From contig JAFQDR010000186.1 of NCBI GenBank assembly GCA_017415945.1, forward strand, positions 1 to 11,952: a stretch of DNA of 11,952 nt, read 5' to 3'. Origin of the DNA: Oscillospiraceae bacterium. GTDB lineage: Bacteria > Bacillota_A > Clostridia > Oscillospirales > Oscillospiraceae. Every line of letters begins with the position of its first letter. Positions within the stretch are counted from its first letter, which is position 1. Both the position numbers and the translations under genes were made by a program. Under the pieces are notes generated by a model that did no database searches, was not told where the DNA came from, and saw only the letters and a list, made by a program, of their open reading frames with translations. Below, in pieces: positions 236-9,473 of the stretch.

Positions 236-622
236 ATGGCACTGTTTAACTTTGGCAAAAAGAAAGAAGTAAAGAAAGAAACCGGTTGCTGCTGCGGCAG
301 CACTGCACCCAAGGCAGAAGAGATCGGCTGTTGCTGTAGCTCTGCGCCCAAGGCAGAGAATACTTGCTGCTGCGGTAAGAACACCATCAAGGTTCTGGGT
401 TCCGGCTGCAAGAACTGCCACGATCTGTATGAAGCATCCAAGACTGCGGTACAGAATCTGGGTCTTGCAATCGAAGTCGAGTATGTGACTGATATGGAGA
501 CGATCATGGAGTATGGCGTTATGAGTATGCCTGCTTTGGTGGTCAATGAGAAGGTAGTTTCCATGGGCAAGGTCCTGAAGGCCACCGATGTAGAGAAACT
601 GCTGCACAAGCTGGGTTTCTGA
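236..622 (+). CDS. Thioredoxin-fold protein with N-terminal Cys-triplet repeats
   Basis: This 128-residue protein has two parts. Residues 1-50 are a Lys-rich, low-complexity head with three CCC clusters at residues 18-20, 32-34 and 44-46, separated by near-identical Ala-Pro-Lys-Ala-Glu linkers. Residues 50-128 form a small thioredoxin-like domain with the redox pair C58-K-N-C61 and the cis-proline loop SMPA (Pro99). This matches the small 'redox-active disulfide protein 2' type found beside permease and arsenic genes. A likely role is disulfide exchange with ArsC or metalloid handling at the permease; the Cys head could bind As(III) or a soft metal. No signal peptide or membrane segment is seen, so it should be cytoplasmic. 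The arsC start follows its stop by one base, so translation is probably coupled. The fold assignment is firm; the partner and ligand are inferred. Confidence 0.85.
   Translation: MALFNFGKKKEVKKETGCCCGSTAPKAEEIGCCCSSAPKAENTCCCGKNTIKVLGSGCKNCHDLYEASKTAVQNLGLAIEVEYVTDMETIMEYGVMSMPALVVNEKVVSMGKVLKATDVEKLLHKLGF
284..376 (+). repeat. In-gene Cys-triplet repeat, 2.3 units
   Basis: The stretch encodes GCCCGSTAPKAEEI (284-325), GCCCSSAPKAENT (326-364) and a partial CCCGK-type unit (from 365). Unit length is 13-14 codons. The DNA copies differ at synonymous sites (TGC versus TGT), so this is an older duplication kept at the protein level. TGC runs make it a plausible site of repeat-number variation. 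Confidence 0.75.
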
Positions 623-623
623 T

Positions 624-1013
624 ATGAAGAAAGTAGCTTTTATCTGCGTCCATAATTCCTGCCGCAGTCAGATTGCAGAAGCGTTAGGCAAGAAGCTGGC
701 TTCCGATGTATTTGAAAGCTATTCTGCCGGTACGGAAACGAAGCCGCAAATCAACCAGGATGCCGTCCGGCTGATGAAGCAAGTGCATGGCATCGATATG
801 GAAGAAACCCAGCACAGCAAGCTCCTGTCCGACATTCCGGAGGTGGATGTGGTCATCACCATGGGCTGCAATGTGGACTGCCCGTACCTGCCCTGCGAAT
901 ATCGGGAGGACTGGGGCTTGGAGGATCCTACGGGGAAATCCGACGAGGCGTTTTTGGATACCATCCGATTGATCGAACAGAAAATATTGGAGCTGAAAGA
1001 AAAGCTTAAATGA
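624..1013 (+). CDS. arsC: Arsenate reductase, LMW-phosphatase fold (thioredoxin-coupled type)
   Basis: This 129-residue cytoplasmic enzyme should reduce arsenate to arsenite for export. The N-terminal phosphatase P-loop is visible as C8-V-H-N-S-C-R-S (CX5R-S), with Cys8 as the nucleophile. Asp101 in the EDPTG loop corresponds to the general-acid Asp-Pro of the family. The redox cysteines lie in MGCNVDCPYLPC: Cys82, Cys86 and Cys91, one more than the Cys82/Cys89 pair of plasmid pI258 ArsC. That spacing is common in clostridial and archaeal forms. Length is normal. The ATG follows the upstream stop by one base (TGATATG) with only a weak ribosome site, so translation likely depends on the thioredoxin-like gene before it. 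That neighbour is a reasonable candidate reductant. A strong terminator follows directly. Confidence 0.93.
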   Translation: MKKVAFICVHNSCRSQIAEALGKKLASDVFESYSAGTETKPQINQDAVRLMKQVHGIDMEETQHSKLLSDIPEVDVVITMGCNVDCPYLPCEYREDWGLEDPTGKSDEAFLDTIRLIEQKILELKEKLK

Positions 1014-1830: not shown

Positions 1831-1856
1831 CATCCCCCGCCAAAGGGCGAGGGATG
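1831..1856 (-). terminator. Possible terminator of the ATP-grasp/AstE operon
   Basis: In minus-strand RNA, CATCCCTCGC (from 1856) pairs with GCGGGGGATG (to 1831) over 10 bp with one G-U pair and a 6-base loop. It begins 4 bases after the stop of the last AstE-like gene. The downstream bases are TTCTGTATTC rather than a clean T run, so termination may be inefficient and some transcripts could read into the XRE gene. Confidence 0.5.
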
Positions 1857-1860
1857 GTAG

Positions 1861-2793
1861 TTATTCGTTTGTTGCGATGAGCTTGAGTACCGCGGTGTTT
1901 GCGTAGGTTAAGGGCTCACTGTGGGCAAAGAACACGATGCTGTCTGTGGGGGCGCGGAGCTCCTCCAAAACCTCGCCTTCTAATGGGTCGAGGATGCGGG
2001 CCAGCAGCTGTCCTGCATAGACCTCGCTGCCGACTTCCATAAGGTTTTCGAAAATGCCTGCGCTTTTGGTGCGTACAGACAGCAGCCGGGAGTCACTGAT
2101 GACGGTGGACAGATAGCCGTCGTGGGTGTTGTAGTCAATGATGCCCTGTTTGGACAGGAAGCGCAGAACACTGTGTACGGCGTTATTTGCGCTTTTGGGG
2201 TCGATCTCCGTGGTGGCGGTGGAAAACAGGCTGAAGGCCTTGGTGTCCCAGATCTGCCAGTTATAGTTGAGGGTAGTGGTGTCGTAGGGGCGCACTTTTC
2301 GCCTGACAACGTACGGCAGCCCGAACTGCTTGGCCATTTCCACATCCTCGTAGCCTGTTTCCATCATGCGGACATGGGGCATGAATTTCCCCGGCATATA
2401 GAAGGAGGAGAATTGGATGCCGTAGCGGTAATCCTTAATGACATCAAAGATCCCTGCCGCAATGCGCTGGGTGGTTTCCCCTTGGTCGTAGCCGGGGAAC
2501 ATTCGGTTGATGTCGGTCTTATCCGTGGGCCAGAAGCGTTCCTTGCTGTTGACGGAGTAGGGGTTGGCGGCGGGAACGATGAGAATGCTGTGCCCATGGT
2601 GAATGCGTCCCTGCTCCTCCAAGCGTTTCATGGCCTTGACCAGTCGGGAGCAAATATAGATCTGCTGTATCTCATTGCCTCGCAGATTGCCGATGATGCA
2701 GGCAGTCTTTTCACCTGCGCCAAACTCGAAGCCCCGCACGGTATAGGGGGCACGGTACAAAGATTTTTCTTCAAATAGTACGATTCGATTCAT
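1861..2793 (-). CDS. AstE/AspA-like (M14-type) protein lacking catalytic residues, probable pseudoenzyme
   Basis: Start: ATG at 2793, with a modest GGAAAA site; an in-frame TTG at 2805 is possible but has no ribosome site. Length is 310 residues. It aligns almost without gaps to the gene just upstream (2808-3755). It keeps the NRMFPG substrate-loop motif (96-101), the HVRM region and the C-terminal beta-barrel-like domain (about 245-305, with LLARILDPLEGEVLEEL). However, the zinc motif GIHGDE of the paralog reads NLRGNE here (His to Arg38; Glu41 kept), the second zinc His is Ser129 (IDIHAS to IQFSSF), and the catalytic Glu of VVEMG is Ser191. Two of three metal ligands and the general base are therefore gone, although the frame is intact. 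It probably folds like a succinylglutamate desuccinylase or aspartoacylase but should not hydrolyse amides by the family mechanism. A binding or partner-stabilising role is inferred. Confidence 0.85.
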   Translation of the reverse strand: MNRIVLFEEKSLYRAPYTVRGFEFGAGEKTACIIGNLRGNEIQQIYICSRLVKAMKRLEEQGRIHHGHSILIVPAANPYSVNSKERFWPTDKTDINRMFPGYDQGETTQRIAAGIFDVIKDYRYGIQFSSFYMPGKFMPHVRMMETGYEDVEMAKQFGLPYVVRRKVRPYDTTTLNYNWQIWDTKAFSLFSTATTEIDPKSANNAVHSVLRFLSKQGIIDYNTHDGYLSTVISDSRLLSVRTKSAGIFENLMEVGSEVYAGQLLARILDPLEGEVLEELRAPTDSIVFFAHSEPLTYANTAVLKLIATNE

Positions 2794-2807
2794 TTTGTTT
2801 TCCAATC

Positions 2808-3755
2808 TTACGGTTTATAGGCTTCTTTCCGCAGAAGACGTCCCAATAGAGAGCCGCTGTTGACGATGGGGTACTCACGGATAGTGAACAGGATGCCATC
2901 AACAGGGGAGAGGATGGTTTCCAGCACTTCCCCTTGGAGGGGGTCGATGATTCGACCGATTTCGTCACCTTGCTTCAGGTGCACCCAATGCTTGACAGAG
3001 GGAACAAATACACCTGCGGTGGGAGCGTTCAGATAGCTGACATCATCGGGATCCTCGGAATAGATGGGGGTGCGGGGCTCGATGACCTCTCCGTCCCAGA
3101 TACCCAGCTTGTGCATGACACGGAAGATACCGTCGGTCAGCTGATCGCAATAATCTTTGGTGATGCGCATGCCAACACCCATTTCCACCACCAAGGTGGG
3201 GGTGCCGCGGCTGTTGAGGCTGTATGCCAAGGTGGATTCCAAAACGGTGCTGGCACCGTGTACCCAAATGAAGTCGATGTTCAGCTCCTTGGCAAGGGGG
3301 ACAAGGGTGTCCTTGTGGAGCTCATTGATGCGCACCTGCGGGATCTCTGTCAGAAAAATGTTGCTGGCGTGGATATCGATGCACAAATCGGAGCCTTCCA
3401 AATCTCCCACGATTTTGGAGGCGATGTATTCGGTCATGGAACCGTCCTTGTTCCCTGGGAAAAGTCGGTTCATGTCAAGGTCAAAGGCGGGGATGCCGCG
3501 GGTAACAGAGTCGATGCCCAAGGGGTTCATGGCGGGGTAGATATCCACGATGCCCTTCAAACAGTGCTTCTGCTCACGGATACGACGCTGCAGCTCAAAA
3601 CAGACAAACTGTCCTTCCAGCTCATCGCCGTGGATGCCCGTGACGATGCTGATGCGCTTTTCTCTGCCTGTGAGAACGTCAGGGGTGATGCGGTTCTTTT
3701 TGATTTCCAATACTTCATCGACGGGCAGTCCCACCGATGCAATGGTTGTGATCAT
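2808..3755 (-). CDS. AstE/AspA-like zinc amidohydrolase (M14 family), catalytic set intact
   Basis: The ATG at 3755 is chosen for its AAAGGAG site, which overlaps the stop of the transglutaminase-like gene; longer in-frame readings lack a site. The 315-residue product shows the family's metal-binding set: H42-G-D-E45, His129 in IDIHAS, and the catalytic Glu191 in LVVEMG. The substrate-binding loop reads DLDMNRLFPG (92-101). A C-terminal domain (about 246-308) resembles a lipoyl/biotinyl-type barrel seen in many members, with GRIIDPLQGEVLET. The family cleaves N-acyl or amide bonds of small molecules such as N-acetylaspartate or succinylglutamate. Here it sits between a transglutaminase-like protease and its degenerate copy, so the substrate is more likely the product of the ATP-grasp ligase encoded at the head of the operon. 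That link is inference. It has no signal peptide and should be cytoplasmic. Confidence 0.88.
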   Translation of the reverse strand: MITTIASVGLPVDEVLEIKKNRITPDVLTGREKRISIVTGIHGDELEGQFVCFELQRRIREQKHCLKGIVDIYPAMNPLGIDSVTRGIPAFDLDMNRLFPGNKDGSMTEYIASKIVGDLEGSDLCIDIHASNIFLTEIPQVRINELHKDTLVPLAKELNIDFIWVHGASTVLESTLAYSLNSRGTPTLVVEMGVGMRITKDYCDQLTDGIFRVMHKLGIWDGEVIEPRTPIYSEDPDDVSYLNAPTAGVFVPSVKHWVHLKQGDEIGRIIDPLQGEVLETILSPVDGILFTIREYPIVNSGSLLGRLLRKEAYKP

Positions 3756-3765
3756 AGTTTCTCCT

Positions 3766-4542
3766 TTAGGTGACACGAACGGTCACGGTTTGGTGTTGCT
3801 CCGCATAGCTGCGGATGATGCCCTTATTGACCATACAGTCTGCGGCATCTCTGCCGTGGGCGATTTTGATATAGCTGTCTGCGGCAATGCAGTCGTTGGT
3901 GGGATCCATTGCGTACCAGTAGTCTCCGCTCAGGATCTCCACCCATGCGTGGGTGGCACCTTCGCCAATCATCATCCCTGTGACATAGCGGGCGGGGATG
4001 CCTGCCAAATGGCACAGTGCGATGAAAATGTGGGCATAGTCCTGGCAGACGCCCTTACCCAGTGACCAAGCCTCACCCGCGGAGGTGCTGACACCTGTGA
4101 AACCTTGCTCATAGGAAAAGTCACGGTGCAGGCTGTGCATGAGATACAGGGCTGCTTCGTAATGGCTATTTTGGGGCATATCCGAAATGAGGCCGTCAAA
4201 GTAGCTTCGGATTCCCTCATCGGGACGGTTCAGCCCATGGGGATGCCGATACAGCATGGGGCTTTCGGTACAGCGCTGGCTGACAGCCAGCCATGTTTCC
4301 GCTGTGCCAGTGACGGTGACGGTGAAGCGGTCGTGGGGAAAATAGAGATTCCCATAGACCGTGAGATTGCCAAAGGAGTCGGTACCCCTTTGGCAATCAT
4401 GAGCGGGCGTGATGGTGAGTGTAAGGTCGGTGATCTGCTGCATATCTGTATCACGGGGGAGGCACTTGAGGGTATAGTGACTTTCGCTGACGGTTTGTGA
4501 GTAGGTCAGCTCCATGCAATATTCGAACTGCAGCTTTCGCAA
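3766..4542 (-). CDS. Transglutaminase-like cysteine protease with N-terminal beta domain
   Basis: The start is probably TTG at 4542, with AAAGGAG 8 bases upstream; the first ATG (4515) lies far from any site and would cut the conserved N-terminal domain. The 258-residue product has the usual bacterial transglutaminase N-terminal region (residues 1-80, with SHYTLKCLPR) and a papain-like core. The catalytic triad is visible: Cys166 in GKGVCQDYAH, His198 in THAWVE and Asp213 in AMDPTND. This is the COG1305 architecture. In operons with ATP-grasp and alpha-E proteins it is thought to cut or transfer amide or peptide bonds. It has no signal peptide, so it acts in the cytoplasm. It starts 13 bases after the alpha-E stop, and its ribosome site overlaps that stop, which suggests coupled expression. 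Confidence 0.9.
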   Translation of the reverse strand: MRKLQFEYCMELTYSQTVSESHYTLKCLPRDTDMQQITDLTLTITPAHDCQRGTDSFGNLTVYGNLYFPHDRFTVTVTGTAETWLAVSQRCTESPMLYRHPHGLNRPDEGIRSYFDGLISDMPQNSHYEAALYLMHSLHRDFSYEQGFTGVSTSAGEAWSLGKGVCQDYAHIFIALCHLAGIPARYVTGMMIGEGATHAWVEILSGDYWYAMDPTNDCIAADSYIKIAHGRDAADCMVNKGIIRSYAEQHQTVTVRVT

Positions 4543-4555
4543 ATCAAACGCTCCT

Positions 4556-5218
4556 TTATACGATGGATTCCACGGTGGCGACTACACGGTAGTAGTCGAT
4601 TTCTTCTGCCTCTGCCAGCTCCTTCAGCAGCATGAGGTTTTCTTTGTTATAGCTCAGACCGCTGCGCTCAATACGGGGGATGAGACGCTTGATCTCACGC
4701 AGCAGCTCCTTGCGTGGCATATGGAGACGGCCGTACAGGTCAATGCGCTCGATACGCTTGCCTGCCTTGATCATGTTGCGGGCGTGCTCGGAGTCGATGC
4801 TGTCGTCGGCGATACCCCAGAAAGCGAGGATATTGTCCATGACCTTCTGCATTTCAATGAGGGGAGCAGAGCTGATTTTTGCCTTGTTCATGGCGTAAAT
4901 GGCCAGCTGAATGTAGGAAATGACCTCCGAGCCGATCTCGTCGCGGAGCTCAATGGCGTTGTCGTAGGCACGGGTCAGGTTGGACATGATGGAGTTGGGA
5001 TCCTCGCTGTCGAAGGGATAGCGTTCCTCAAAGACCTCCATACTGCCGTACACATCGGGAATATCGATGGAGCGGCAGAAGCCGCGGTACAGGTCGCCGC
5101 TGCCGTCGATGAGCTCGTCGAAGCTCTCAAAATACAGTCTGATGGTGGTGTACACGCGCTCGGAGTATCTGCCCAGCCAGTACAGTCTGTCGGCCTGTTC
5201 AAAAGAAATAATGCTCAT
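4556..5218 (-). CDS. Alpha-E domain protein, short form
   Basis: The ATG at 5218 is preferred over the one at 5224 because GGGAGG is then 8 bases away rather than 2. The 220-residue protein is nearly all helical. It shows the alpha-E signatures: ADRLYWLGRYSERV near the N terminus (9-22), RAYDNAIELRDEIGSEV in the middle (83-99) and AGKRIERIDLYGRL (152-165). Typical proteobacterial members are about 310 residues, so this is a compact form; the C-terminal third appears shortened, and the frame shows no sign of damage. Alpha-E (COG2307) proteins have no proven activity and nearly always accompany a circularly permuted ATP-grasp protein, sometimes fused to it. A scaffold or product-binding role is inferred. 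It begins 16 bases after the ATP-grasp stop. Confidence 0.88.
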   Translation of the reverse strand: MSIISFEQADRLYWLGRYSERVYTTIRLYFESFDELIDGSGDLYRGFCRSIDIPDVYGSMEVFEERYPFDSEDPNSIMSNLTRAYDNAIELRDEIGSEVISYIQLAIYAMNKAKISSAPLIEMQKVMDNILAFWGIADDSIDSEHARNMIKAGKRIERIDLYGRLHMPRKELLREIKRLIPRIERSGLSYNKENLMLLKELAEAEEIDYYRVVATVESIV

Positions 5219-5234
5219 AATCATAACCTCCCAA

Positions 5235-6554
5235 TCACTTAGACAGTACCCAGGTATCCTTAAAGCCGCCGCCCTGAGAGGAGTTGACGATGAAGGAATC
5301 GGGGTTGCGGGAGAAACGGGTGAGGCCGCTCTTCCAAACCACAGTCTTGTCGGTGGTCAGAACATAGGCACGCAGGTCTGCCTTGCGGGGCAGGAACTCG
5401 CCGTTTTCCAGAATGTCCAGATCCAGGAAGTCAATGACCTCCTGTGCAATGAAGCGGCGGGGCTCTTTCTTCAGCAGATTGATGAAGGTTGCCTTTTCTT
5501 CCTTGGTCATCTTGCTGCCGAAGACTACACCGTAGCCGCCTGCTTCCGCTACGTCTTTCAGCACCAGATTGTCGAAGTTGTCCAGTGTGTACTTCATGTC
5601 CTCCTCGTAGTAGGGGAGATAGGTGGGCGCATTGGACAGGATAGGCTCCTCGTTCAAGTAGTAGCGAATCATCTTGGGAACAAAGTAGTAGATGCCCTTG
5701 TCGTCGGCGATGCCGTTGCCGGGGGCGTTCAGCAGAGCTACGTTGCCCTTCTTGAATACATCGTACAGATGGGGTACACCGATGAGAGAGCCCTCGTAGA
5801 AGTTGATGGGATCCAGATACTCGTCGGAAATGCGGCGGTACACGGCGCCTACTCGTTCCAGAGAACCGTCGTAGTTGACGTAGTAGAGATTGTCGTTTTC
5901 TACACGGAGATTGCGGCTGCTTACCAATCGGGCTCCTGTCTTTTCTGCAAGGTAGGAGTGCTCGAAATAAGCGGCGTTGTAGCGGCCGGGGGTCAGTACC
6001 ACGTTCAGCCCCCCTGTGTTCACATGATCCATGGTCTGCTTCAGGAGCTTGGCATAGTTGCGGTTGTCTTCCAGCTTGATGTTCTTAAAGGTGGTGGGGC
6101 TGGCACGGCGGCACAAATCACGGGCGATCATGGGGTAGGAGGCACCGCTGGGCACACGGAGATTATCCTCCAGTATGTACCAGTGCTTATCCTTGCCCTG
6201 CACCAGATCGATGCCCGAAATATGGGAATAGATATCCTTGATAGGGGTGACACCCTCACACTCTGCCATATAGCCTGAGGAGGAGAAGATAAATTCTTCG
6301 GGGATGACCTTATCCTTGACGATTTTCTTGTCACTGTAAATGTCCTTTAGGAACAGATTCAGTGCCATGACACGCTGCTGCAAGCCTCGTTCCAGTCGGT
6401 CAAATTCATCCGCCTCGATAACTCTGGGGATGGCATCAAAAGGAAAGAGTTGTTCATTGAATGTGTTGTTTTTGTAAATGCCGAATTTTACGCCGTATCT
6501 TGCCAAAAGCTCGTTGACCGTATCGGCCCGTTTCAGCAGATCCATATCGTACAT
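5235..6554 (-). CDS. Circularly permuted type 2 ATP-grasp amidoligase
   Basis: The ATG at 6554 follows GGAGG at a 7-base distance. The 439-residue product carries the conserved blocks of the COG2308 family: LEDNLRVPSG (128-137), RYNAAYFEH (191-199), YRRISDEYLDP (239-249), NAPGNGIADDK (276-286), an AEAGGYG nucleotide-loop segment (336-342) and the C-terminal SSQGGGFKDTWVL (425-437). These enzymes are predicted to use ATP to activate a carboxylate and form an amide or peptide bond, through an acyl-phosphate step shared by ATP-grasp ligases; the natural substrate is unknown. It heads a five-gene operon and has its own promoter and palindromic leader. It is somewhat shorter than the 470-500 residues common elsewhere, and no membrane or signal segment is present. 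The family call is firm; the reaction is inferred from the fold. Confidence 0.92.
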   Translation of the reverse strand: MYDMDLLKRADTVNELLARYGVKFGIYKNNTFNEQLFPFDAIPRVIEADEFDRLERGLQQRVMALNLFLKDIYSDKKIVKDKVIPEEFIFSSSGYMAECEGVTPIKDIYSHISGIDLVQGKDKHWYILEDNLRVPSGASYPMIARDLCRRASPTTFKNIKLEDNRNYAKLLKQTMDHVNTGGLNVVLTPGRYNAAYFEHSYLAEKTGARLVSSRNLRVENDNLYYVNYDGSLERVGAVYRRISDEYLDPINFYEGSLIGVPHLYDVFKKGNVALLNAPGNGIADDKGIYYFVPKMIRYYLNEEPILSNAPTYLPYYEEDMKYTLDNFDNLVLKDVAEAGGYGVVFGSKMTKEEKATFINLLKKEPRRFIAQEVIDFLDLDILENGEFLPRKADLRAYVLTTDKTVVWKSGLTRFSRNPDSFIVNSSQGGGFKDTWVLSK

Positions 6555-6599: not shown

Positions 6600-6628
6600 A
6601 GTTTACTACCGTTGGAAATCCTTGTCAA
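6600..6628 (-). promoter_or_regulatory. Sigma-A-type promoter of the ATP-grasp operon
   Basis: On the minus strand a perfect -35 TTGACA (6623-6628) is followed by a 17-base spacer and -10 TAAACT (6600-6605, 4 of 6 consensus). This predicts a start near 6593 and a leader of about 40 bases. It is divergent from the cyclophilin promoter, with about 40 bases between the two -35 boxes. Confidence 0.75.
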
Positions 6629-6729: not shown

Positions 6730-7350
6730 ATGAAGAAGATGACAACACTGATTCTGGCTCTGTGTCTGCTGCTGACGGTGACTGCCTGCGGCGGTACTCA
6801 GGGCGGAGAGAGTGCACAGACCACTGTGGTTACGATGGAACTGGATGAAACCGCAACCTATTATGCGGATATTGAAATTGCCGATTACGGCACTGTTACC
6901 GTGCAGCTGGATCAAGGGGCTGCGCCCATTACCGTGGCCAATTTTGTGGAACTGGCGGAAAGCGGCTTTTATGACGGGCTGACCTTCCACCGCATCATCA
7001 GCGGGTTTATGGTGCAGGGGGGCGATCCCGAGGGCAACGGCACAGGGGGCAGCGATACCAAAATCAAGGGTGAATTTGCCGCCAACGGCTGGGATAACCC
7101 CATCAAGCATGAGCGGGGCGTGATCTCCATGGCTCGCAGCAAGGCATACGATAGTGCGAGCTCCCAGTTCTTTATCATGCACGCGGACGCACCTCATCTG
7201 GATGGCGGCTATGCGGCATTCGGTAGAGTTACCGAGGGTATGGATGTGATCGATGCCATCTGCAACGATGCCAAGCCCACCGACAACAACGGCAGCATTG
7301 CACCCGATGCGCAGCCTGTGATCACAAGCGTGACCATCAGAGCTGAATAA
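6730..7350 (+). CDS. Cyclophilin-type peptidyl-prolyl isomerase, lipoprotein
   Basis: The ATG at 6730 is chosen because GGGAGG lies 7 bases before it and the reading then begins with a proper signal: MKK, a hydrophobic core, and the lipobox V-T-A-C20. The mature protein should be lipid-anchored on the outer face of the membrane. After a Gly/Ser/Thr linker, residues 43-205 form a cyclophilin domain with the catalytic FHR (86-88; Arg88 equals human CypA Arg55), FMVQGGDP (93-100) and SSQFFI (144-149). The position of the cyclosporin-contact Trp121 of CypA is His156, as in many bacterial cyclophilins, so drug binding should be weak. The role is proline isomerisation in folding of exported proteins. 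It is a single-gene unit with its own promoter and terminator, unrelated in obvious function to its neighbours. Confidence 0.93.
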   Translation: MKKMTTLILALCLLLTVTACGGTQGGESAQTTVVTMELDETATYYADIEIADYGTVTVQLDQGAAPITVANFVELAESGFYDGLTFHRIISGFMVQGGDPEGNGTGGSDTKIKGEFAANGWDNPIKHERGVISMARSKAYDSASSQFFIMHADAPHLDGGYAAFGRVTEGMDVIDAICNDAKPTDNNGSIAPDAQPVITSVTIRAE

Positions 7351-7355
7351 CCGAG

Positions 7356-7390
7356 AACCGAAATCCCATGCAAAGAGGATTTCGGTTTTT
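7356..7390 (+). terminator. Rho-independent terminator of the cyclophilin gene
   Basis: AACCGAAATCC (7356-7366) pairs with GGATTTCGGTT (7377-7387) over 11 bp, with a 10-base loop and a T run ending at 7390. It begins 5 bases after the stop codon. Confidence 0.92.
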
Positions 7391-7405
7391 GTATTTTATC
7401 CGAAC

Positions 7406-7434
7406 TTGCATTATTTTGCGTTTTCGGCTATACT
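7406..7434 (+). promoter_or_regulatory. Likely promoter of the topoisomerase operon
   Basis: TATACT (7429-7434, 5 of 6 consensus) lies 17 bases after TTGCAT (7406-7411, a weak -35). The predicted start is near 7441, giving a leader of about 47 bases with an AAAGGAGA ribosome site (7477-7484) before the ATG at 7488. This is the only gene-free stretch between the cyclophilin terminator and the operon. Confidence 0.55.
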
Positions 7435-7487
7435 ATATCAGTTAAAATAGGATAAGTATCAATATTTTTAGAGATAAAGGAGAACCC

Positions 7488-9473
7488 ATGGCGGAAAAAT
7501 ACGGTAATGACAGTATCTCACAGCTGAAAGGCGCCGACCGCGTCAGAAAGCGTCCCGGGGTCATTTTTGGTTCCGACGGGCTGGAAGGTTGCGAACACGC
7601 TGTTTTTGAAATCCTGTCCAACTCCATTGACGAAGCCAGAGAAGGCTATGGCACTACTATCAACCTGACGGCTTACGAGGATGGTTCTATTGAGATCGAG
7701 GACTTTGGCCGCGGCTGTCCCGTGGACTGGAACCCCAATGAAAAACGATATAACTGGGAGCTGGTATTCTGCGAATTGTATGCCGGTGGTAAGTATAAAA
7801 ACGAAGAAGGGGAGAACTATGAATTCTCTCTGGGCTTGAATGGCCTTGGCTCCTGTGCCACACAGTACGCATCCGAATATATGGATGTGACTGTTCGCCG
7901 TGATGGGAACCGCTACGACCTGCACTTCAAGAAGGGCGTGCCCGTAGGGAAGAAGGGTAAGGAGCTGTCCGTGCAGCCCACCGACCGCAAGGAGACAGGC
8001 TCCACCATTCGCTTTAAGCCCGATATCGAGGTCTTTACGGACATCAATATCCCCGAGGAATTTTACCACGATGTCCTGCGCAGACAGGCTGTGGTCAATG
8101 CGGGGGTCAAGTTTGTGCTGCGCATCCAGAAGGGCAGCAAGTTTGAAAAGACCGTGTATCTGTACGAAAACGGCATCAAGGACTATGTTGCGGAAATCGG
8201 TGGGGAAAAGGCTCTGACTGCCCCAGTGTTTATTCAGACAGAGCGTCGGGGCAAGGACCGTCCCGATAAGCCCGAATACAAGGTGAAGCTGTCCGCAGCC
8301 TTCAGTTTCTCCAACCAGACCAACCGTATTGAGTATTACCACAACTCCTCCTGGCTGGAGCATGGGGGTGCCCCCGAAAAGGCAACCAACTCCGCTTTTG
8401 TCAGTGCGGTGGATGATTATATCAAAAAGACCAATAAGTACCAGAAAAACGAATCCAAAATCAAGTTCCAGGATATTGCGGACTGCTTGATTCTGGTGAC
8501 CAACTGCTTCTCCACCCAGACCTCTTATGAGAACCAGACCAAGAAGGCCATCACCAACCGTTTCATTCAGGAGGCCATGACCGCCTTCTTCAAGGAGAAT
8601 CTGGAAATCTACTTCACGGAAAACAGACTGGAAGCGGATCGTGTCATAGACCAGATCCTCATCAACAAGCGTTCCCGTGAACAGGCGGAGCGCACCAGAG
8701 TGGCTGCCAAGAAGAAGCTGACGGGCACCATGGATCTTTCCAACCGTGTACAGAAGTTTGTAGACTGCCGCAGCAAGGACCCCAATGTCCGTGAGCTGTA
8801 TATCGTGGAAGGTGACTCCGCTTTGGGCGCGGTAAAGCAGTCCCGTGACTCCGAAACACAGGGCATTATGCCTGTCCGCGGTAAGATTCTCAACTGCCTT
8901 AAGAGCGACTACGCCCGTATTTTCGGCAGCGATATTATCACCGACCTGCTGAAGGTGCTGGGCTGCGGTGTGGAAGTAAAGGACAAGCACATCAAGGATA
9001 TTTCGCCCTTTGATATGGCGAACCTCCGCTGGAGTAAAGTCATCATATGCTCCGACGCGGACGTGGACGGCTACCAGATCCGCACCCTTATTATTACTAT
9101 GATCTATCGTCTCATGCCTACCCTCATTCAAGAGGGGCTGGTGTACATTGCGGAGACCCCTCTGTATGAGATCAACTGCAAGGGTAAAACTTACTTTGCT
9201 TACACCGATGAGGAAAAGAATAAAATCGTATCGGACTTCAAGGGTGCCAAGCACACCATTCAGCGCTCCAAGGGTCTTGGCGAAAATGACCCCGAAATGA
9301 TGTGGCTGACCACTATGTGCCCCGATACCCGCCGTCTGATTCGTGTGATGCCCGAGGATGCCGAGCGTACCCAGCTGATGTTTGATATGCTGCTGGGGGA
9401 CAATCTGGCAGGCCGTAAGGAGCACATTGCTCAAGAGGGCGGATATTACCTCGAATTTGCCGATTTGAGCTGA
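7488..9473 (+). CDS. Type IIA DNA topoisomerase subunit B, divergent ParE/GyrB-like
   Basis: This 661-residue ATPase and TOPRIM subunit should drive ATP-dependent strand passage with the downstream A subunit. The GHKL ATPase shows E41-ILS-N45 (catalytic Glu and Mg-binding Asn), D72-FGRG and GLNGLGS (117-122, normally GLHGVGA). The ATP-sensing QTK loop is present (350-352). The TOPRIM domain has EGDSALG (441-447, usually EGDSAGG), RGKILN (464-469), the DADVDG metal triad (523-528) and QRSKGLGEN (592-600). All catalytic residues are kept, but several signature positions differ from housekeeping GyrB/ParE. It lacks the long insert of E. coli GyrB. The gene overlaps nothing and is followed after 13 bases by the A subunit. 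It is best read as a clostridial topoisomerase IV-like or second type IIA enzyme; naming it parE would require comparison with the genome's gyrB. Confidence 0.9.
   Translation: MAEKYGNDSISQLKGADRVRKRPGVIFGSDGLEGCEHAVFEILSNSIDEAREGYGTTINLTAYEDGSIEIEDFGRGCPVDWNPNEKRYNWELVFCELYAGGKYKNEEGENYEFSLGLNGLGSCATQYASEYMDVTVRRDGNRYDLHFKKGVPVGKKGKELSVQPTDRKETGSTIRFKPDIEVFTDINIPEEFYHDVLRRQAVVNAGVKFVLRIQKGSKFEKTVYLYENGIKDYVAEIGGEKALTAPVFIQTERRGKDRPDKPEYKVKLSAAFSFSNQTNRIEYYHNSSWLEHGGAPEKATNSAFVSAVDDYIKKTNKYQKNESKIKFQDIADCLILVTNCFSTQTSYENQTKKAITNRFIQEAMTAFFKENLEIYFTENRLEADRVIDQILINKRSREQAERTRVAAKKKLTGTMDLSNRVQKFVDCRSKDPNVRELYIVEGDSALGAVKQSRDSETQGIMPVRGKILNCLKSDYARIFGSDIITDLLKVLGCGVEVKDKHIKDISPFDMANLRWSKVIICSDADVDGYQIRTLIITMIYRLMPTLIQEGLVYIAETPLYEINCKGKTYFAYTDEEKNKIVSDFKGAKHTIQRSKGLGENDPEMMWLTTMCPDTRRLIRVMPEDAERTQLMFDMLLGDNLAGRKEHIAQEGGYYLEFADLS

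Follow-up and report, generated by a model that had tools for sequence, protein, structure and literature searches.

An ATP-grasp, alpha-E and transglutaminase-like operon of gut Clostridia carrying an AstE/AspA-type hydrolase and a paralog without its catalytic residues

Operons that combine ATP-grasp, alpha-E and transglutaminase-like genes are widespread; the key paper on them is Iyer et al. 2009, which may contain an earlier mention of what is described here. In Proteobacteria and other bacteria these genes form part of the Anbu operon, Anbu being a proteasome-type Ntn hydrolase. According to passages of two reports (PMC5666114, PMC6376114), the chemistry of this operon has variously been proposed to be peptide synthesis, protein tagging or protein degradation. 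Passages of the latter also describe phosphate release from ATP by the ATP-grasp protein of the operon, no peptidase activity for Yersinia Anbu, and no specific interaction of the Yersinia operon proteins by pull-down (PMC6376114). In Pseudomonas putida grown on nitrate versus ammonium, an excerpt of PMC8050072 gives two operon genes as raised about 16- to 22-fold (log2 3.99 and 4.44), nitrogen-limitation data that come from Proteobacteria and not from Clostridia.

The locus considered here lies in a stretch of 11,952 nucleotides from an Oscillospiraceae bacterium (assembly GCA_017415945.1, contig JAFQDR010000186.1), hereafter the window. It has two AstE/AspA-fold genes, M14a and M14b, beside the three genes named above. 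New here are the origin of the M14 pair in a single duplication, the catalytic loss of M14b and the occurrence of the pair away from the operon; in passages of the literature on ATP-grasp with aspartoacylase and on pseudoenzymes, no AstE/AspA-type active/inactive pair was found.

Layout and recurrence of the five-gene operon

On the minus strand of the window, from 6554 to 1861, genes for ATP-grasp, alpha-E, transglutaminase-like enzyme, M14a and M14b follow one another in that order (Table 1), and all five products exceed the curated Pfam cut-off in a profile search. The preliminary description had reported five minus-strand genes, which all lie where it placed them and whose identities Pfam confirms. 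It had also given gaps of 10-16 bases: the close spacing stands, but the coordinates yield 10, 13, 10 and 14 bases from first gene to last, hence a range of 10-14. Its "one good promoter" would be the 10/12 site, although the promoter scan as a whole ran near chance (12 found versus 9.7 +/- 2.6 in shuffles), and can be rated plausible. The hairpin past the last gene, read from 1856 to 1831, has a folding energy of -24.9 kcal/mol (z -5.55; 0/200 shuffles as low), and the terminator scan overall was likewise near chance (10 found, 10.5 expected). Among relatives the median gaps across the five genes are -19, 43, 20 and -4 bases, a pattern typical of what would be a single co-transcribed unit; counting against one unit, transglutaminase and M14a genes are more than 100 bases apart at 13 of the 88 loci measured.

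Table 1. Operon genes and candidate signals in the window
Feature	Position	Strand	Support
Sigma-70-like promoter site TTGACA-17-TAAACT	6600..6628	-	10/12; ~46 bases before first ATG
Circularly permuted type 2 ATP-grasp (COG2308-type), 439 aa	5235..6554	-	CP_ATPgrasp_2 PF14403, 443.6 bits
Alpha-E, short form, 222 aa	4556..5224	-	PF04168, 76.3 bits (cut-off 20.8)
Transglutaminase-like cysteine enzyme, 258 aa from TTG	3766..4542	-	PF01841 + PF08379; 68.1 bits
M14a, AstE/AspA-type zinc amidohydrolase, 315 aa	2808..3755	-	AstE_AspA_cat PF24827, 88.2 bits
M14b, AstE/AspA-fold pseudoenzyme, 310 aa	1861..2793	-	AstE_AspA_cat PF24827, 47.2 bits
Hairpin, probable terminator with weak T tail	1831..1856	-	directly past last stop codon

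The ATP-grasp gene product, a probable amide-bond ligase, is related in sequence to 3n6x (E 7.6e-106), has many residues at least 98% conserved in 89 relatives, and, across 83-99% of its length, is 36-44% identical to 37 of 40 plasmid-collection records among the matches listed (117 matched). The alpha-E match spans profile positions 6-164 of 294 only, and alignment with long alpha-E proteins shows that about 90 of their residues are missing; the motif W-L-G-R-Y-x-E-R is kept, being invariant in 47 sequences, and the AF2 model (pLDDT 92.5) matched no PDB fold at E <= 0.001. The transglutaminase-like gene most likely starts at TTG 4542, with AGGAG ahead of the start, and its Cys161, His193 and Asp208 (numbering of 3766-4527) are conserved to 97% or more among 94 sequences.

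All five genes recur in the same order at 69 of 80 named loci, a count that includes five in which one or two genes are broken into two frames, together with some whose first gene is cut by a contig edge. Of the other 11 loci, seven are cut short by the end of the contig, and genuine differences are seen in four: L009 is decayed, L037 is split, L044 carries insertions, and L046 has neither ATP-grasp nor alpha-E at the locus. In a class sample of 391 genomes, alpha-E occurs in 12, all of which have the M14 pair, and three further genomes carry the pair but no alpha-E (Fisher p 2e-20, ignoring kinship). In another class of the phylum, six of seven alpha-E genomes combine a long alpha-E with the M14 pair. 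The concern that the pair might adjoin these genes in this genome only is thereby removed, many more genomes having been found. Two contig-edge cases were also recorded: in G260 the alpha-E contig ends in an M14a fragment (52 bits) while the pair itself lies on a second contig, and the seventh genome of the other class, G895, has a short alpha-E on a contig that ends inside the transglutaminase gene.

A Klebsiella locus (L125) has the order ATP-grasp, alpha-E, transglutaminase, Anbu, and its ATP-grasp is homologous to that of the window. Among the further loci examined only L125 matched Anbu, and the Klebsiella Anbu query gave no match in the window or in L001-L080. The gene identities and the link to the known Anbu operon that had been drawn from the window are both upheld, and the suggestion that an AstE-like pair takes the hydrolase slot is borne out by Anbu in that place in L125 and by the pair in every alpha-E genome of the class sample. 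The operon is best taken as an Anbu-type ATP-grasp/alpha-E/transglutaminase operon in a variant form with an M14 pair.

An intact hydrolase and its paralog

The active site of M14a is complete (His42, Glu45, His129, Glu191), as is its substrate motif Asn96-Arg97; the roles of these residues are presumed to be those given in the AstE/AspA family literature. Of 99 distinct operon copies, 98 have the whole motif and one is incomplete; all six long-alpha-E copies have it intact. In M14b of the window, a zinc His is replaced by Arg38, the third ligand is gone and the catalytic Glu is replaced, with Asn96-Arg97 kept. The same holds widely: the catalytic Glu is absent from all 130 distinct M14b sequences, its position being taken by Tyr in 121, Met in 6 and Phe in 3; the zinc ligands equivalent to His42 and His129 are lost in 124/130; and Glu45 and Asn96 are kept in 130/130, Arg97 in 129/130. 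The contrast of an intact paralog with a degenerate one, drawn in the preliminary description, is therefore upheld, M14a having its catalytic residues and M14b having lost them. M14b positions were scored in a single MAFFT alignment with M14a (130 M14a rows, 125 distinct; 133 M14b rows, 130 distinct), from which short duplicate-type loci (L081-L092, L104-L112, L127-L156, L162-L179), five loci of the plasmid collection and frames shorter than 250 aa were left out.

In a tree of 50 M14a and 50 M14b rows (window included) and 10 outgroup rows, the M14a clade has an SH-aLRT value of 95 and the M14b clade 96; of 17 outgroup candidates, seven had been discarded because no motif-bearing frame was found close to their match, and rows longer than 420 aa were trimmed. 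On the sequence evidence, the pair is the product of one duplication. The M14b copies that accompany long alpha-E branch earlier, carry Met in place of the catalytic Glu and retain both zinc His (6/6), so the catalytic Glu appears to have been lost first. Solved sequence relatives of M14a include 2qj8, 3cdx, 3na6, DoeB and CphZ, the last of which also ranks with the best matches of M14b by fold. The preliminary description had suggested that the product may carry an N-acyl or side-chain amide cap; since DoeB is an N-acetyl-diaminobutyrate deacetylase and CphZ a beta-Asp-Arg hydrolase, either kind of amide may be the bond cleaved.

Proposed pathway and alternative roles of the pair

In many gut Clostridia, the five-gene set probably makes and breaks an amide compound. 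ATP-grasp, probably with alpha-E, would convert a carboxylate to an acyl-phosphate and couple it with an amine, so forming a small amide or isopeptide; this would be transferred or trimmed by the transglutaminase-like Cys-His-Asp enzyme and hydrolysed by the zinc enzyme M14a; and M14b, with its conserved Asn-Arg pocket devoid of catalytic residues, would act as a non-catalytic, probably substrate-binding, subunit of M14a. The whole, an Anbu-type module in which the M14a hydrolase and its M14b partner stand in the place of Anbu, has in our judgement about an even chance of being right, and the pathway may serve nitrogen or amino-acid economy. With an AstE-type enzyme as the hydrolase of this lineage, the range of likely products shrinks to small acylated amino acids and isopeptides, and the lineage supplies enzymes with which the orphan pathway could be assayed.

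The pocket segments, picked by sequence and not by measured distance, are better conserved than the remainder of either protein (0.826 versus 0.632 in M14b, 0.864 versus 0.654 in M14a; 103 loci), and the Asn-Arg loop is more conserved in M14b (0.924) than in M14a (0.819). A pocket so conserved despite lost catalysis could also belong to a stand-alone ligand sensor or regulator, binding the product's acid moiety and controlling the operon enzymes or another target; moreover, animal M14 pseudopeptidases act via protein-protein contacts and several share the Glu-to-Tyr replacement, according to passages of PMC11266112. We consider such a sensor unlikely, as a stoichiometric complex better fits the adjacency of M14b to M14a at 31/31 places of a 120-genome family sample (one M14b being cut by a contig edge), the median gap of -4 bases between them (92 loci), and the resemblance of the two trees (pairwise identities r 0.875, without a control gene).

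The pair is not confined to the operon. It had been presented as tied to the ATP-grasp pathway, a view that fails on 20 loci at which it stands apart from the other three genes and on the family sample, where unlinked places outnumber those with the operon (18/31 versus 12/31, one more lying on a contig whose shortness leaves its class undecided). In 15 draft genomes the pair is present without an alpha-E match, 14 of them also being without an ATP-grasp match over cut-off, and the pair would therefore have at least one role outside the pathway. Unlinked pairs often lie upstream of purL. Neighbouring genes on the same strand encode, among others, family-3 amino-acid ABC binding proteins (12/97 five-gene-type loci and one unlinked locus) and C26 gamma-glutamyl-type hydrolases (9/97 five-gene-type loci); at one locus they encode a GABA transaminase and a PucR regulator. 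Neighbours of these kinds, together with the unlinked loci and the genomes without alpha-E, speak for an independent amino-acid salvage module for imported N-acyl or gamma-glutamyl amides, merely co-expressed with the ATP-grasp genes. That reading is distinctly unlikely in the light of the pair's presence in all 12 alpha-E genomes of the class sample and of the M14a motif, which is altered only in unlinked copies (7/20 versus 0/109 linked rows, 104 distinct). The unlinked copies of M14a are intact in 13/20 and keep His129 and Glu191 in 20/20, and for two of the seven altered ones the genome also has the five-gene operon.

It is quite improbable that M14b is instead an enzyme with a new, metal-free or differently wired chemistry based on the set Arg38-Glu41-Asn96-Arg97-Gln127-Tyr: its replacing residues are near-fixed (Arg38 in 124/130 sequences, the catalytic position filled by Tyr or Phe in 124/130) and segment 171-180 has a mean conservation of 0.97, but the Met of the long-alpha-E copies leaves no replacing residue common to the whole clade. 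Finally, M14a is most improbable as the missing isoaspartyl dipeptidase of Firmicutes cyanophycin breakdown, an enzyme called undiscovered in a passage of PMC10206079, for despite the CphZ likeness of both proteins the cyanophycin synthetase is over cut-off in only one (G174) of 37 pair-bearing relatives' genomes.

Comparison with known systems

To our knowledge, DoeB has no dead partner. From this N-acetyl-diaminobutyrate deacetylase (DoeB/EutE; 6twm, 6twl) the pair is also set apart by score, M14a reaching 53.6 bits and M14b 38.3 on the DoeB equivalog TIGR02994, far under its cut-off of 402.7. CphZ (8ein, 8eip) differs in acting on cyanophycin dipeptides, the synthetase for which was not over cut-off in 36/37 pair genomes. 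As in most M14b sequences, the catalytic Glu is changed to Tyr in AEBP1, CPXM2 and CPD-III, as passages of PMC11266112 relate, although these are animal proteins of the carboxypeptidase branch and not of the AstE/AspA type. The same passages describe in the mitochondrial processing peptidase (M16) alpha/beta an active zinc subunit beside a paralog that has no zinc but supplies residues, a likeness to the heteromer we infer for M14a and M14b, in another fold and family (PMC11266112).

With the Anbu operon, the clostridial locus shares the first three genes and their order, a homologous ATP-grasp and the Cys-His-Asp triad, and it differs in having two AstE/AspA-fold genes where no Anbu was found and an alpha-E about 90 residues shorter. 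Tentatively, and with a probability somewhat short of even, Anbu may have been functionally replaced in a large part of the Clostridia by an obligate AstE/AspA hydrolase/pseudohydrolase heteromer, in which M14b lost first the Glu and then the zinc site while keeping the pocket; since an AstE-type enzyme for small acyl-amino acids or isopeptides would then fill the slot, the pathway would make a small amide and not a protein tag.

Organization and recurrence of the five-gene unit

Between positions 6554 and 1861 of the window lie five minus-strand genes separated by gaps of 10, 13, 10 and 14 bases, whose proteins all score over the Pfam cut-offs: CP_ATPgrasp_2, Alpha-E, Transglut_core with Bact_transglu_N, and AstE_AspA_cat for both M14a, with an intact active site, and its adjacent paralog M14b, which lacks the catalytic Glu. 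The five minus-strand genes, identities and short gaps of the preliminary description are thereby confirmed; of its one good promoter, a promoter-like site is present, but the scan overall was near chance. Elsewhere in the window, a thioredoxin-like protein has a Cys-rich N-terminal extension with repeated CCC; the gene that follows is low-molecular-weight phosphatase-like, and we take it to be arsenate-reductase-like.

Coordinates of features in the window and two related loci
Feature	Position	Strand	Observation
Cyclophilin-type gene		divergent	upstream of unit; Pfam
Promoter-like site			5' of first gene (ATP-grasp); 10/12 matching
Alpha-E	4556-5224	minus	lacks roughly 90 residues found in long alpha-E proteins
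Transglutaminase-like gene, most likely start	4542	minus	TTG, preceded by AGGAG
M14a	2808-3755	minus	
M14b	1861-2793	minus	
Hairpin			3' of last stop codon (M14b); -24.9 kcal/mol, z -5.55
HTH-domain gene		same as unit	downstream of unit; Pfam
Thioredoxin-like protein	236-622		
Phosphatase-like gene	624-1013		
Klebsiella alpha-E match (L125)	7278-8212		spread over two overlapping frames
CP_ATPgrasp_2-start match (G1021)	C24:26843-26959		39 positions, 43.3 bits

The pair adjoins the other three genes in more than this genome, as had been proposed. A scan of named genomes with the M14b alignment matched at least 596 stretches, at least 582 of them confirmed; among the best 80 loci kept (L001-L080), many titled Lachnospiraceae, all five genes occur in the window order in 69, a count that takes in five loci with one or two genes split into two frames and some with the first gene cut at a contig edge. 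Seven of the remaining 11 stop at a contig edge (L010, L024, L026, L031, L035, L066, L076), and four are real departures: L009 is decayed and L046 lacks ATP-grasp and alpha-E, neither genome having an alpha-E match; at L037 the pair lies elsewhere on the contig than the other three genes; and at L044 multi-kilobase insertions separate the five. At L044 and L121, on the same contig, the genes keep one strand with several kilobases of other frames between them, one of 997 aa, which looks like insertions into an operon. Family-3 ABC binding proteins neighbour 12 of 97 five-gene-type loci, and C26 gamma-glutamyl-type hydrolases, one member identified, neighbour nine on the same strand (L024, L025, L026, L031, L038, L042, L062, L077, L103), in six no more than 200 bases away.

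Co-occurrence with alpha-E and origin of the pair

Among 391 genomes of the class of Eubacterium plexicaudatum (G001), alpha-E is present in 12 and PF24827 in 34, including all 12, each with two matches. The five genes stand in order in ten fetched neighbourhoods and in G001 (named locus L025). In G260, ATP-grasp and a 514-aa frame with an alpha-E match share a contig end and are followed by a 52-bit M14a fragment, with no transglutaminase match there, and the pair sits on a different contig; three further genomes (G174, G249, G271) carry the pair without the other genes. Association of alpha-E with the tandem pair gave a Fisher p of 2e-20, genomes being counted as independent of kinship.

Of 398 genomes sampled across the phylum, nine have alpha-E, four short as in the window and five long. 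The short ones belong to three genomes already among the 12 and to G637, also pair-bearing; long alpha-E accompanies the pair in G711 and G690, and no pair was found in the 15-16 kb fetched around the locus in G418, G610 and G562. In the class of G690, alpha-E occurs in seven of 82 genomes: six long, all with the pair, and one short (G895), on a contig that stops in the transglutaminase. Because some long-alpha-E genomes also carry the pair, either it is older than the short form of alpha-E or the two came together separately. This shortening coincides, on one branch, with loss of the M14b zinc ligands.

In a tree of 110 rows (quick search, SH-aLRT support only), M14a (95) and M14b (96) are sister clades. 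Since copies from long-alpha-E loci form the earliest branches within each, the catalytic Glu would have been lost before the zinc ligands, an order that is tentative pending a fuller tree, because the tree program warned of long branches coming together within the outgroup and where M14b splits.

Pairs apart from the operon

In a family sample of 120 genomes centred on G249, M14a occurs at 31 places in 26 genomes, and M14b adjoins every one. Twelve places are with the operon (one cut at a contig edge), 18 are apart, and one (L206) sits on a 5-kb contig that, with 1.4 kb upstream, is too short to place it in either group, alpha-E and ATP-grasp lying on another contig of that genome. L189, among the 18, starts 88 bases from a contig edge in a genome without alpha-E or ATP-grasp match. 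Five genomes hold two places, one linked to the operon and one unlinked. Adding L157 and L158, which come from the class sample, brings the unlinked loci examined to 20, and five of the genomes carrying them have the operon elsewhere. The 15 others gave no alpha-E match and 14 of these no ATP-grasp match over cut-off, absences that are provisional in draft genomes; in the fifteenth (G1021), a match to the start of CP_ATPgrasp_2 may be what is left of an operon since lost, or a fragment at the end of a contig.

M14a is altered in seven of the 20 unlinked copies (His42 in three, Arg97 in six, both in two), requiring five changes on the tree, and no alteration is seen among the 109 linked rows (104 of them distinct); His129 and Glu191 are retained in all 20. 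Because of this difference, the M14a active site seems, from sequence, to be kept fixed only where linked to ATP-grasp genes, and the role of unlinked pairs may differ or be shifting. Two altered copies (L184, L194) come from genomes also holding the operon.

In 12 of the 20 loci the pair is followed on its own strand by an FGAM-synthase (purL) family gene, in ten (L184-L187, L190-L192, L194-L196) at -3 to 249 bases, measured to the open frame and not the start codon, and in L183 and L189 farther away; the arrangement may be functional or may be synteny by descent. One was confirmed as TIGR01857 (1787.6 bits), and a family member also follows the five-gene locus L208, at a distance of 2.6 kb. 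In G174 (L158, L216), the genes upstream of the unlinked pair encode a GABA transaminase, beside the pair, as well as a PucR regulator and amino-acid ABC transporter components; this genome also encodes a full cyanophycin synthetase (1188 bits).

Proposed function and the Anbu-type operon

The ATP-grasp protein would most likely form an amide via an acyl-phosphate, since a relative from the Anbu operon releases phosphate from ATP, according to passages of PMC6376114. The transglutaminase-like enzyme retains its triad. By family and residues M14a is classed as a zinc amidohydrolase, solved relatives including N-acetyl-diaminobutyrate deacetylase and cyanophycin dipeptide hydrolase, and M14b would be its non-catalytic partner. 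The neighbouring family-3 ABC binding proteins, C26 hydrolases and GABA transaminase hint at a possible role in amino-acid and nitrogen economy, and so do data from other bacteria: Anbu operon expression is described as nitrogen-responsive in Pseudomonas putida (passages of PMC8050072 and PMC6376114), and an NtrC-regulon table for Burkholderia cenocepacia lists ATP-grasp and alpha-E genes (PMC5491218). Excerpts of PMC5666114, however, run counter to such a role, reporting unchanged expression under various conditions and favouring protein degradation. The product may also be bioactive, because antinematode activity is listed in a review table (PMC7764037) for a marine clone that carries genes for an ATP-grasp, an alpha-E, a transglutaminase and a protease.

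The suggestion that the AstE-like pair takes the hydrolase slot, its intact member removing an N-acyl or side-chain amide cap from the product, holds for the slot, occupied in a Klebsiella record by the proteasome-type protein Anbu, for which a query found no match in the window or L001-L080; the chemistry we only infer. Five loci were examined among 117 plasmid-collection records matching ATP-grasp: one carries Anbu, and no M14 match lies closer than about 6 kb to any of them. The alpha-E of the Klebsiella record (L125) looks frame-broken or mis-sequenced. The five-gene unit appears to be a new form of the Anbu-type operon in which an active enzyme and its dead paralog are conserved side by side: ATP-grasp, alpha-E and transglutaminase are common to the window and to the Klebsiella operon, where they stand in this order followed by Anbu, whereas in the window the M14 pair follows them.
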